DNA from: Bryobacterales bacterium
GTDB lineage: Bacteria > Acidobacteriota > Terriglobia > Bryobacterales > UBA6623
Direction: 5' to 3'
Assembly (NCBI GenBank): GCA_026713545.1
Contig: JAPOOG010000111.1
Span: forward strand, 1 to 53,932
DNA length: 53,932 nt
Position numbers and translations under genes: made by a program
In this document: positions 2,510 through 34,941 of the stretch, piece after piece
How the letters are laid out: every line of letters starts with the position of its first letter
How positions within the stretch are numbered: position 1 is the stretch's first letter
The notes under the pieces: model-generated
Told to the model about the DNA's origin: nothing
The model's input: the letters and a program-made list of their open reading frames with translations, nothing else
Database searches by the model: none

Positions 2510-5362
2510 ATGAACGCACGAGGGGAATACCGTCCCAAGCCTCTGAACGTCCGGACAGTCCTGATGCCGGTGCTGGCTGTCGTACTGCTGGCCGGATTCT
2601 CGTTCCTGCCCGCACAGACGCCGAGTCCACTGGGAGACGAGTCGGTTGCCGCATTCCGGGTCCGCTTCGGGCTCACGGATTCCCAACCCCGCGCCTGGGA
2701 CGGAGAGCTGTCCGTCGACCGTGGCCAAGTGCTCAGCCTCCGCAACTGGAACCCCCACCCCGAGGAACGGATCAACGGCAAGACCGGCTGGCGGCTGGCG
2801 ACGCGCGAGGGCCTGAACTACCCCCGCCGGGTCTACCAGTGGGAGGACCCCCGCGGCACCGAGGAGTATGTGACGATTCCGGGGATCGTCGTGGAGGTAC
2901 GAACGACATCCAGCACGCGCCTCCGGTTCGAGACCGCGAACGGTGATTTCGAAGTCTGGCCGCGGGAGCTGCGGGTCGGCCGGCCCATGAAGCACCTCGA
3001 TGGAGCGGTCGAGGTGGACTTGGTCGCGCCGGCCGAGCGCCTTTCCTCTGAAACGGTCAACAGCGACTTCCCTACGCTCCTTGCCGGAGAAGACGGTGAG
3101 CTGTGGGCCGCCTGGGTCACTTACAGCGGCGGCGGCAACCGCGTGCAGGTTCGCCGCTTCGACGGTGAATCGTGGGGCTCGATCGAAACCGTCAGCGGAA
3201 GCCCCGGCGACGTGTTTCTCGTCAAGATGGGCCGCGACAGGCACGACCGGCCCTGGGTGATCTGGTCCGAACAGGTCGATGGCAACTTCGATCTCTACGC
3301 CCGCTGCCGCAACGGCGGGAAATGGTCTGCGGCGACCCGCTTGACGGACGCGCCGCAGTCCGACATGCAACACGCCCTCACGACCGACGCGAACGGCAAT
3401 CTCTGGCTCGCCTGGCAGGGCTTCCGTAACGGCAAGTCGGATATCTTCGTCCGTCGCTACGACGGCGGGACCTGGTCGCCCGAGCAGAAAGTCTCGACTT
3501 CTCCGGCCAACGACTGGAAGCCCGCCATCACGGCCGACGGTACGGGGGGCGTGTACATCGCCTGGGATACCTACGACAAGGGCGACTACGACATCGTGAT
3601 GCGCCGCTGGTCCGGCGAGAGTTGGGGCGAGACCATCCCGGTCGCGGACACGCCGAAGTTCGAAGCTCATGTCACTCTCGCCTGCGACAGCCAGGACCGC
3701 TTGTGGGCCGCTTGGAACGAGAGCGGCTTCCAGTGGGGCAAGGACTCCGGCTTCTTGATCTACAAGGAGGCGACGCGGCTCTACGAGTGGCGGGCGCTGG
3801 CCCTCGGGGTCTATTCCGGCGGTCGTTGGCGGCATCCCGCGTCTGACGTTAATACGGCCCTGCCCGCCGAGCTTCACGGCTTCAATGACCTGCCCGTCTT
3901 GCAGAGAGACGCCCGGGGACGGATGTGGCTGTTCTTTCGTCATCGTTTGCTGCGCGCCCGGGACACCCCCGATTTCACCCCGGCGCACCGTGCGGCCTGG
4001 CAGATCTATGGCACTACATACCTCGGCGACGCCTGGCTGCACCCGCAGCATCTGCCTTTCAGCCGAGGCCGGCAGGACATGCGTTGGGGCATCACCCGGG
4101 ACTCCGAAGGCGCCCTGGTCGCCGCTTGGCCGACCGACAACCGCGACTCCGATCAGTACTTGTTCGACAGGACCGACGTCTACGCCGGTAGGCTCCCGGC
4201 GCTTGCCGGGGAGGCCAAGCCGCCTGTCCTCGTGGAACGCAAGGACCGCCGCTACGACACCTATCCGGCTCACCCCAACGAAGAGGCTGACCTGAAGCGG
4301 ATCCGGGATTACTCCATCGAGTCCGGCGGCAAGACATATCGCATCTATCGCGGCGACACGCACCGCCACACCGAGTTCTCCGACGATGGTTACAGCGATG
4401 GCTCGCTGTTCGAGACCTACCGCTACGCCCTCGACGCCGCCTCGCTCGACTTCATGGGGGTCAGCGAACATAACAACGGCAGCGGCCAGGACAACGAGTA
4501 CATCAACTGGCTTCTGCCGCAAGTCGCCGACCTGTTCCATCTGCCCGGAACGTTCGCGCCGATCTATACCTACGAGCGAAGCGTCAGCTACCCCAACGGA
4601 CATCGCAACATCCTCGTCGCGACGCGCGGCATCCCGACCCTCCCGATTCCACCCGAGGAGCGGAGCGGCGAGGTCGGCGCAGCCGAACTGTATGACTATC
4701 TCAGGAAGTACGACGCGATCGCGATCTCGCATACTTCCGCAACGGGCATGGGGACCGACTGGCGTGATAACGATCCGGATTTGGAGCCCCTCGTCGAGAT
4801 CTATCAGGGCGATCGTGTCTCGGCCGAATACGAAGGCGCCCCCCGCGCCGCGACAGCAGAGAAGCCCTACAACCAGCAGGGCGGCCTTCGCCCCGCGGGT
4901 TATGTATGGAATGCCTGGGCCAAGGGCTTGAAGCTCGGCGTGCAAGCCGCCTCTGACCATATCTCGACCCACATCTCCTATGCCTGCACCATCGCCGAAG
5001 ACTTCAGCCGCGACGGGCTTCTCGACGCCATGCGCAAGCGGCACTCCTACGGCGCGACCGACAACATCGTCCTCGACTACCGCCTGCAGGCCGGCGGCAA
5101 GGAATACCTGCAGGGCGACATCGTCGAAGTCGACGGCGCGTTCCGGCTGTGGATCAACATCATCGGGACCTCGCGTATCGAGCAGATCGATATCATCAAG
5201 AACAACACCTTCATACACACTCGCCAGAACCTCGAAGAAGAGGTCCATTTCACCTTTGTCGACAACGAAGTGACGCCCGGTGAAAGCTACTACTACGTGC
5301 GGGTGCAGCAGAAGAATCAGGAAATGGCGTGGTCGTCGCCGATCTGGGTGACAACTCGCTGA
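2510..5362 (+). CDS. Secreted DUF3604 protein with N-terminal beta-propeller
   Basis: A 950-residue protein starting MNARGEYRP, with a hydrophobic stretch (LMPVLAVVLLAGFSFLPAQ, about residues 17-35) that looks like a signal peptide or anchor. Residues about 180-560 hold repeated W-x-A-W / WVIWSEQ-type motifs typical of a beta-propeller. The C-terminal third is DUF3604, a PHP-like metal-dependent domain: GDTHRHTEFSDDG near residue 615, SEHNNG near 652 and an HTSATG block near 743 supply likely metal-binding His and Asp residues. The biochemical role of DUF3604 is not established; a phosphoesterase-type hydrolase is the usual guess. The start sits in a short divergent promoter region shared with the sialidase, suggesting co-regulation. 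Confidence 0.8.
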   Translation: MNARGEYRPKPLNVRTVLMPVLAVVLLAGFSFLPAQTPSPLGDESVAAFRVRFGLTDSQPRAWDGELSVDRGQVLSLRNWNPHPEERINGKTGWRLATREGLNYPRRVYQWEDPRGTEEYVTIPGIVVEVRTTSSTRLRFETANGDFEVWPRELRVGRPMKHLDGAVEVDLVAPAERLSSETVNSDFPTLLAGEDGELWAAWVTYSGGGNRVQVRRFDGESWGSIETVSGSPGDVFLVKMGRDRHDRPWVIWSEQVDGNFDLYARCRNGGKWSAATRLTDAPQSDMQHALTTDANGNLWLAWQGFRNGKSDIFVRRYDGGTWSPEQKVSTSPANDWKPAITADGTGGVYIAWDTYDKGDYDIVMRRWSGESWGETIPVADTPKFEAHVTLACDSQDRLWAAWNESGFQWGKDSGFLIYKEATRLYEWRALALGVYSGGRWRHPASDVNTALPAELHGFNDLPVLQRDARGRMWLFFRHRLLRARDTPDFTPAHRAAWQIYGTTYLGDAWLHPQHLPFSRGRQDMRWGITRDSEGALVAAWPTDNRDSDQYLFDRTDVYAGRLPALAGEAKPPVLVERKDRRYDTYPAHPNEEADLKRIRDYSIESGGKTYRIYRGDTHRHTEFSDDGYSDGSLFETYRYALDAASLDFMGVSEHNNGSGQDNEYINWLLPQVADLFHLPGTFAPIYTYERSVSYPNGHRNILVATRGIPTLPIPPEERSGEVGAAELYDYLRKYDAIAISHTSATGMGTDWRDNDPDLEPLVEIYQGDRVSAEYEGAPRAATAEKPYNQQGGLRPAGYVWNAWAKGLKLGVQAASDHISTHISYACTIAEDFSRDGLLDAMRKRHSYGATDNIVLDYRLQAGGKEYLQGDIVEVDGAFRLWINIIGTSRIEQIDIIKNNTFIHTRQNLEEEVHFTFVDNEVTPGESYYYVRVQQKNQEMAWSSPIWVTTR

Positions 5363-33219: not shown

Positions 33220-33311
33220 GTTTCTCACTAAGCTGCTGTCCGCGAAGGCAGCAACTGTCTACATCGGATCTTCGTCGTGGATAAGCGAGCGGCGTTATGG
33301 GCCTGATGCGG

Positions 33312-33403
33312 CTAGCCTGCATTTCTCACCACGCGGCGAGGCGAAGTGCGTGAGAGGGCCGTCAAGACGAGGCGCGAGCCGCTTGTCGTGCGCAGGCGTA
33401 CTT
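33312..33403. repeat. MITE-like repeat, family B copy 3, left half
   Basis: It begins at CTAG (33312) with a TIR that is a perfect inverted match to the right half at 34921-34941. It contains AAGTGCGTGAGAGGGCCGTC and ends GCAGGCGTACTT, exactly half of the central palindrome, where the IS begins. Confidence 0.85.
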
Positions 33404-33505
33404 ATGGGATGGTTCGCTCCCACCCCAGCTGCGTCGTGCATTTCGGCCATGCTGGTTACAGCGGTCTTCCGCGACCGCCGTTACTGAACCGGAAAGGAAC
33501 CAACC

Positions 33506-34520
33506 ATGGCATCGATCCAACCAACACTCCGCAACAGCGCACTGCAACAGGTCGCCACGATCGGCCTGGATCTTGCAAAGTACAGCGTCGACTTCGTCGG
33601 CCTGGACGCCGCCGGCCGGGTACTCACTCGCCGCCAATACTCGAAGGGCAAGCTGCTGGAGGTAACCGCCAGGATGCAGCCCTGCCGGATCGGCATGGAG
33701 GCCTGCTGCGGCGCCCATCACCTGGGCCGCCAACTGCTGGCCCAGGGGCACGACGTGAAGCTGATGCCGCCCAAATATGTGAAGCCCTTCGTCAAGCGCG
33801 ACAAGAACGACTCGCAGGACGCCGAGGCCTGTGCGGAGGCCTGTCTGCGGCCGACCATGCGCTTCGTGGCGGTCAAGAGCGAGGAACAACTGTCGATGCA
33901 GTCGCTGCACCGCTAATCGTTCGCGGCTGGTGGGCAACTCCACGCAACTGATCAACCAGGCGCGCGCCTTTCTTCTGCAACGCGGCATCGCCCTGCCGCA
34001 GGGCAAGCAGTGCTTCGCCGACCGGCTGCCGGAGATCCTCGAGGACGCCGACAACGGCCTGCCCGACGAAATGCGGGCGCTGCTGGCCGGCATGCTGGCC
34101 GAATGGGAGGTGCTGGAAGAGAAGATTCAGCAAGTCAACCGCTACCTGCTGAGGAAAGCGAAGGCCAGCGAGGCCTGCCGGCGGCTGAGAGAGATCCCCG
34201 GCATCGGCGTGCAGACGGCGACCGCCTTGGTGGCGACGATCGGCCACGGAGAGGCTTTCGAGAAGGGGCGTGATGTCGCCGCCTGGCTGGGGCTGGTGCC
34301 GAGGGAGTACTCCACTGGGGGCAAGCAGCGTCTGGGAGGCATCAGCAAGCGCGGCAACCGCTACGTCCGGACGCTGCTGGTGCACTGCGCTCGCTCGGGC
34401 CTCGAGGTCCTCTCCCAGCGTAGCGACCAACTAGGCCAGTGGCTGCGGCGCATGCTCGTCCACAAAGACCGGCGAGTCGTGATCGTCGCGCTGGCGGCGC
34501 GGCTGGCACGTATTGCCTAG
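33506..34520 (+). pseudogene. IS110/IS1111 transposase, frameshifted
   Basis: The N-terminal DEDD RuvC-like domain reads IGLDLAKYSVDFVGLD, IGMEACCGAHHLG and KRDKNDSQDAEA (likely Asp, Glu, Asp, Asp ligands). After LHR at 33913 an in-frame TAA stops translation. The reading continues one base over as NRSRLVGNSTQLINQARAFLLQRG to the end at 34520. The C-terminal Transposase_20 domain follows: LREIPGIGVQTATALVATIG, WLGLVPREYSTGGKQRLGGISKRGN, with the conserved serine region. The ATG has GGAAAGGA upstream. One inserted base would explain the break; programmed frameshifting is not typical of this family. A joined product would be about 337 residues, the usual length. Confidence 0.85.
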
Positions 34521-34649
34521 GCCTTGCTGAGCAGCGGCCAGCGTTTCGGTCGACAGCGGCAGCACGCCCCGGCGGCTTGACACAAACCCAACCCGCTACC
34601 GAGGAAAGGAGGAATCTCACCGTTCGTCTGCTCATTCCCGATTGATGGA

Positions 34650-34800
34650 CAAAACGGTCGTACCGGCGTCACCGAATCCTGTTACTGTTCATGGCCCCGA
34701 GAGGTCGACGTACTTACGAGGACCGGGACGTGCGGACCCCATCATGGCCCGGAACCCGCGCGGTTCCATCGAGAGGTCGGATATATTGGCGCAGACCACC
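34650..34800 (+). ncRNA. Candidate bridge RNA (seekRNA) of the IS1111-type element
   Basis: The 3' non-coding end of the IS holds two similar modules, each with ATGGCCC, then CGAGAGGTCG, then a loop closed by GGTC...GACC. In module 1, TACTGTTC (34683-34690) is the complement of the right target flank GAACAGTA, and CGTACTT (34709-34715) equals the left target flank plus TT. In module 2, ATATATT (34781-34787) equals the right IS end plus TT, and CCCAT (34738-34742) complements the first five bases of the left IS end. This matches the target- and donor-binding loops of known bridge RNAs. The ends of the RNA are approximate and transcription is inferred. Confidence 0.55.
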
Positions 34801-34846
34801 GTTCAGCAAGAGGGAAGCGATAGACATCCCGGGAGCGAACCATATA

Positions 34847-34941
34847 TTGAACAGTACGTTGAGCACGGCAAGCAAGCGTTGCGAAGTCATGGCGGTCGTA
34901 TCGCGTGCTTCGGCCGTCGGGTGGTGAGAAATGCAGGCTAG
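34847..34941. repeat. MITE-like repeat, family B copy 3, right half
   Basis: It resumes the repeat as TTGAACAGTACG, GAGCACGGCAAGCAAGCG, GCGAAGTCATGGCGGTCG, TATCGCGTGCTTC, and ends GTGGTGAGAAATGCAGGCTAG at 34941. The last 21 bases are the exact reverse complement of the left end at 33312-33332. Confidence 0.85.

Follow-up and report, generated by a model that had tools for sequence, protein, structure and literature searches.

The window, by which we mean the whole stretch of 53,932 nucleotides that was analysed, contains an insertion sequence that sits in the tip (loop) of a palindromic repeat of ~185 bp. Its transposase gene is distributed over two reading frames, and the region 3′ of this gene holds two similar sequence modules, in which short matches to the flanks and to the ends of the element can be read. 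The positions of all features are collected in Table 1.

Table 1. Features of the element and of its surroundings, in window positions.
Feature	Position	Strand	Remarks
Target, left half of the ~185-bp hairpin repeat	33311..33403	.	
IS1111-group insertion sequence	33404..34848	+	Inverted repeats, 73-77% identical copies elsewhere, orthologous empty site
Left subterminal inverted repeat ATGGTTCGCTCCC	33409..33421	+	13/13 match to right one
Transposase gene, 5′ part (DEDD / RuvC-like domain)	33506..33916	+	PF01548 E=3.9e-11, NF033542
Transposase gene, 3′ part (Transposase_20 domain), other frame	33918..34520	+	PF02371 E=1.5e-25, NF033542 E=9e-55
3′ non-coding region / right end	34521..34848	+	
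Predicted bridge RNA / seekRNA core, two modules inside outer GGTC/GACC helix	~34656..34797	+	Model R1, covariation
Right target guide TACTGTTC	34683..34690	+	5′ strand of module 1 internal loop; right-flank complement
Apical stem-loop of module 1	34692..34707	+	TGGCC 34692-34696 / GGTCG 34703-34707
Left target guide CGTAC + core TT	34709..34715	+	3′ strand of module 1 internal loop
Donor guide CCCAT	34738..34742	+	5′ strand of module 2 loop; complements left end ATGGG
Apical stem of module 2	34745..34779	+	TGGCCC 34745-34750, inner hairpin GGAACC/GGTTCC 34751-34767, GGTCG 34775-34779
Donor guide ATATA + core TT	34781..34787	+	Identical to IS right end
Predicted outward sigma70-like promoter TAGACA-16-TATATT	34821..34848	+	10/12 consensus, 0.1 expected
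Right subterminal inverted repeat GGGAGCGAACCAT	34831..34843	-	13/13 match to left one
Target, right half of the same hairpin repeat	34849..34941	.	

Element, transposase gene and target repeat

The element is 1445 bp long when one copy of its TT core (34847-34848) is counted in; the other copy is found at 33402-33403, and TT thus stands at both outer borders. The inverted repeats, ATGGGATGGTTCGCTCCC ... GGGAGCGAACCATATATT, are located five bases inside each end, and their 13 bp fall within the 7-17 bp of IS1111 subterminal repeats. The two pieces of the transposase gene match the profiles DEDD_Tnp_IS110, Transposase_20 and NCBI 'IS110 family RNA-guided transposase', and the 3′ part contains the GL-P----STG motif, read as GLVPREYSTG. 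The combination of DEDD and Transposase_20 domains with a G--P----S(T)G motif, typical of IS1111, is hence present, though the gene is split by a frameshift. The non-coding DNA is also arranged as in this group, with ~328 bp downstream of the gene versus ~102 bp upstream. The predicted promoter stops exactly at the right border, and its TAGACA and TATATT are kept in relatives. A further observation is that the C-terminal half of the transposase (33918-34517) weakly matches the NCBI TIGR-Tas endonuclease model, under the cut-off (E=0.00054), which agrees with the published relation between IS110-type transposases and this endonuclease.

In the sister species G001, the orthologous place has the same neighbouring genes and the same repeat without the element. 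The empty site reads GCGTACTTGAACTGTAC (in a longer reading, GCAGGCGTACTTGAACTGTAC) and has a single TT, which means that CGTAC-TT-GAACAGTA was interrupted by the insertion, with one TT now on either side. The hairpin repeat, with the termini TAGCCTGCATTTCTCACCA / TGGTGAGAAATGCAGGCTA, occurs in ~40 nearly complete copies in the window genome that are empty of the element. The G001 site and these empty repeats display site-specific insertion with no target duplication beyond the core. Taken together with the features given above, and as judged from sequence, the membership of the element in the IS1111 group is confirmed. Among 20 relatives searched, the repeat is present in both other genomes of the genus and was not found in the 18 further ones; it resembles MITE or REP-like families, and no mobiliser is known for it. 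The exact guided 15-mer, CGTACTTGAACAGTA, has 14 further occurrences in the genome, all unoccupied, a count that leaves out the occupied copy, where the pattern is split and fails. Zero occurrences were found for its reverse reading.

The early stop that follows the frameshift terminates the 5′ part of the transposase gene, and the frameshift itself can be placed at 33900-33930. It is recognized as such because the gene is read in a single, uninterrupted frame in the relatives G014 (357 aa) and G013. The window genome has one copy of the element, and an intact relative of the transposase was not found in it. Since the gene is frameshifted and no such intact relative was found, the window copy is probably immobile, a stranded insertion whose RNA can still be read. 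There is a small but appreciable chance that it is instead still active, the frameshift being a sequencing or assembly error or being passed by ribosomal frameshifting. The RNA, the ends, the repeats and both protein halves, with the DEDD residues and the STG motif, are indeed otherwise well preserved, but the single frame of the two intact relatives speaks against this option, and so does the presence of one copy in the genome despite 14 unoccupied exact target sites.

Fold and guides of the non-coding region

A covariance model, called R1, was built from nine close copies. The window sequence, which is one of the nine, is scored by it with 159 bits at 34656-34810. R1 matches directly downstream of the transposase in most loci with a related transposase, and matches were obtained in 45 of the 399 genomes of the class. 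A right-end location of bridge RNAs is supported by PMC11208160. The search of Rfam with the window RNA gave no match.

It is to be emphasized that the fold rests on covariation, because the window RNA folded alone is not better than shuffled sequence (z +1.2 and +1.7). In the nine close copies alone no covariation is visible, these being too similar, and 88 distinct sequences were needed. In the alignment of these, 91.5% of the cells are paired, and compensatory changes occur in 31 of the 37 predicted pairs. The score for covariation, 0.520, compares to 0.19 in shuffles and to no more than 0.086 with slid partners, and there are 586 cells with double changes versus 177 in the shuffles. The alignment was fitted to the model and somewhat favours the structure, but the compensatory changes are still far above both controls. 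A conserved fold across relatives, which had been set as a test beforehand, is accordingly observed, and it holds the guides in its loops.

The apical stem of module 1, TGGCC/GGTCG, is paired in 95% of the cells, with compensatory changes in all five pairs, while the outer GGTC/GACC helix is 97% paired and also covaries. The earlier note had suggested another arrangement, in which both modules share a loop closed by GGTC...GACC. A stem of this kind, which would close the 3′ guide, is seen in 48% of the cells for module 1 and in 60% for module 2, with no covariation above shuffles. These loops were therefore rejected: GGTCG has TGGCC as its partner, and GGTC at the 5′ end of the RNA is the partner of the last GACC.

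The guides proposed in the same note were all recovered. Both modules share ATGGCCC, present at 34691 and 34744, and the scaffold CGAGAGGTCG, present at 34698 and 34770. In module 1, TACTGTTC is the reverse complement of the right flank GAACAGTA (34849-34856), and CGTACTT is identical to the left flank (33397-33403). In module 2, ATATATT is identical to the right end (34842-34848), and CCCAT complements the left end ATGGG (33404-33408). As to the order of the guides, in IS1111 seekRNAs the one complementary to the top strand is located 5′ of the one complementary to the bottom strand, with the opposite order in IS110 (Siddiquee et al. 2024, PMC11187229). The window guides, starting at 34683 and 34709, have the top-strand complement first, and the question of whether a right guide before a left guide fits known IS1111 RNAs is answered by this agreement.

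If A34691 and a one-base slip are included, the right guide of the window matches its own flank at 9/9 positions, and the flanks of other copies at 6 or fewer; for the left guide the corresponding numbers are 7/8 and at most 5. The right guide (34683-34691) is out of register with that of the relatives, as it is displaced by one base towards the apical stem, and given this shift it pairs with just one T of the core. Among 4855 random window junctions, a left match of 7 bases together with a right match of 8 bases to the same non-coding region was obtained once, which gives a chance frequency of 0.0002.

Guide change among relatives

We now consider the copies in other genomes of the family that are 73-77% identical, in which the scaffold is kept and the guide slots are altered. 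For example, the left guide of G013, CCACAGTT, equals its own left flank, the right guide of G008a, CACTTGTC, is the complement of its own right flank GACAAGTG, and G014 has the guide AGAGAC against the flank GTCTCT. Over 47 distinct guide pairs, the agreement with the flank of the same copy is 6.17/10 positions for the right guide, versus 3.73 with the flanks of other copies, and 5.04/8 versus 2.96 for the left guide. None of 20,000 permutations reached the observed own-flank match on either the right or the left side. With core positions and near-duplicates left out, 23 diverse copies give 5.78/8 versus 3.10 and 3.61/6 versus 1.59, again with no permutation as high. The expectation that the guide bases covary with the flanks of each copy while the scaffold stays fixed is thus borne out.

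In these tests, the element ends were located from the inverted repeats and the donor guide, with the flanks unused. The automatic end finding failed at ~1/3 of the loci, due to truncated contigs or diverged inverted repeats, and these were omitted, with the exception of three close copies whose ends were taken from a BLAST alignment or direct reading. Poor flank matches are seen in several relatives, such as L133 (right side) and L100 (both sides). On the donor side, the last three bases of the guide (ACA, ACG or ATA) are those of the right end in 31 of 32 distinct copies, an agreement that is not fully independent, as part of the donor guide was used in the end search. Both target and donor guides hence agree copy by copy with the sequences that they are expected to match.

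That the guide matches are a chance or compositional coincidence in a non-coding tail is a practically negligible possibility. The shortness of the guides (5-8 bases) and the unremarkable fold of the single sequence would speak for such a reading, but the joint frequency of both target matches at random junctions, the strong covariation of the RNA, and the co-change of guides and flanks across many copies are all against it, the permutation test refuting it. Another option is that the transposase recognizes the target as a DNA hairpin, with the RNA matches as a by-product. The insertion in the loop of a long palindrome would fit this, and certain IS1111 elements prefer hairpin sites such as attC. 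However, close relatives occupy differing sequences that match their own guide slots, and the guides fit the copy of the palindrome, out of ~40, that is occupied, which makes recognition of the hairpin as DNA very improbable compared to recognition through the guides.

In G008 (C1:5041700-5042700), the locus L136 contains at 302-631 a ~330-bp derivative that has the left end, the predicted bridge RNA and the right end and lacks a transposase; the agreement between its guides and its own flanks is partial (6/10 and 6/8). In a second derivative, L135, part of the transposase is deleted. An intact relative of the transposase was not found in G008. In G014, several contigs (L138, L229, L230, L231 and L232) break inside the same element, and their right flanks all start with (T)GCCTG, the junction varying by one base, as would be expected for one guide and many insertions.

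In the rhizobial locus L110, the right end is present in tandem triplicate (1313-1741), with a unit of 141 bp that is bounded by the cores of the left target guide and of the right end. In L073, also rhizobial, it is partly duplicated (3332-3470), with the cores of the donor guide and of the right end as the borders; this duplication could instead be the result of slippage at a 7-base repeat. A scan for further duplications at guide cores gave these two cases only; L082 was ruled out, as this locus simply holds two copies of the element. We see a slim chance that recombination can also make use of the guide sequences within the bridge RNA gene as its sites. If the recombinase made the duplications, this would be a route for module duplication and guide change, and it could explain why the target and donor modules resemble two copies of one unit.

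Proposed mechanism and known systems

On the basis of these results, the sequence almost certainly encodes the bridge RNA (seekRNA) of an element of the IS1111 group, with two modules that read target and donor, and the earlier reading in these terms is supported. We infer transcription, RNA binding and catalysis from the published work on IS110 and IS1111 elements, and the following mechanism is drawn by comparison with PMC11187229, PMC11208160 and PMC11208158. The fold shown by covariation consists of two similar modules; in each, a lower stem leads to an internal loop, which is topped by the apical stem TGGCC/GGTCG. The 5′ strand of the internal loop complements the right half of the DNA site, and the 3′ strand is identical to the left half plus the TT core. 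Module 1 would read the target CGTAC-TT-GAACAGTA, and module 2 the donor, that is, the ends as they are joined in the excised circle (ATATA-TT-ATGGG). If a relative is active, the right-end promoter would transcribe the circle through the left end, the transposase and the RNA, and the transposase would then use the RNA to recombine donor and target, with strand exchange at TT.

The window RNA and element are confirmed to be a new example, ordinary in kind, of a system described in 2024. The target and donor guides can be read straight from the raw sequence, and a covariance model and an alignment are now given for a bridge RNA subfamily without an Rfam entry, which spans Acidobacteria-type and rhizobial genomes. 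The naturally retargeted copies, one of which is aimed at a genus-specific repeat, provide material on how guides change, and the intact relatives G014 and G013 are candidate programmable recombinases.

IS621 is known to insert in E. coli REP sequences, and IS1111 elements in integron attC sites. The present insertion similarly has a set position in a repetitive palindrome, which differs from REP and attC in being a ~185-bp hairpin confined to this genus among the relatives searched.

The closest resemblance is to the IS1111 seekRNAs of ISEc11, ISPa11 and ISKpn4 (PMC11187229), with which the window RNA shares its location in a non-coding region 3′ of the transposase, the subterminal inverted repeats, the short matches to both target strands in the same order, and the natural retargeting between close relatives. 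Unlike in those systems, the donor module can be clearly made out as a repetition of the module plan, the target is a genus-specific hairpin repeat, the transposase is broken, and the RNA is predicted from sequence. With the IS621/IS110 bridge RNA (Durrant et al. 2024, PMC11208160; Hiraizumi et al. 2024, PMC11208158) it has in common the target and donor loops, a left and a right guide per loop around a core dinucleotide, and a promoter at the joined ends. The differences are that the window RNA is located at the right end, whereas that of IS621/IS110 is at the left end, that the guide order in each loop is reversed, and that the element has a TT core (CT in IS621/IS110) and 13-bp inverted repeats.
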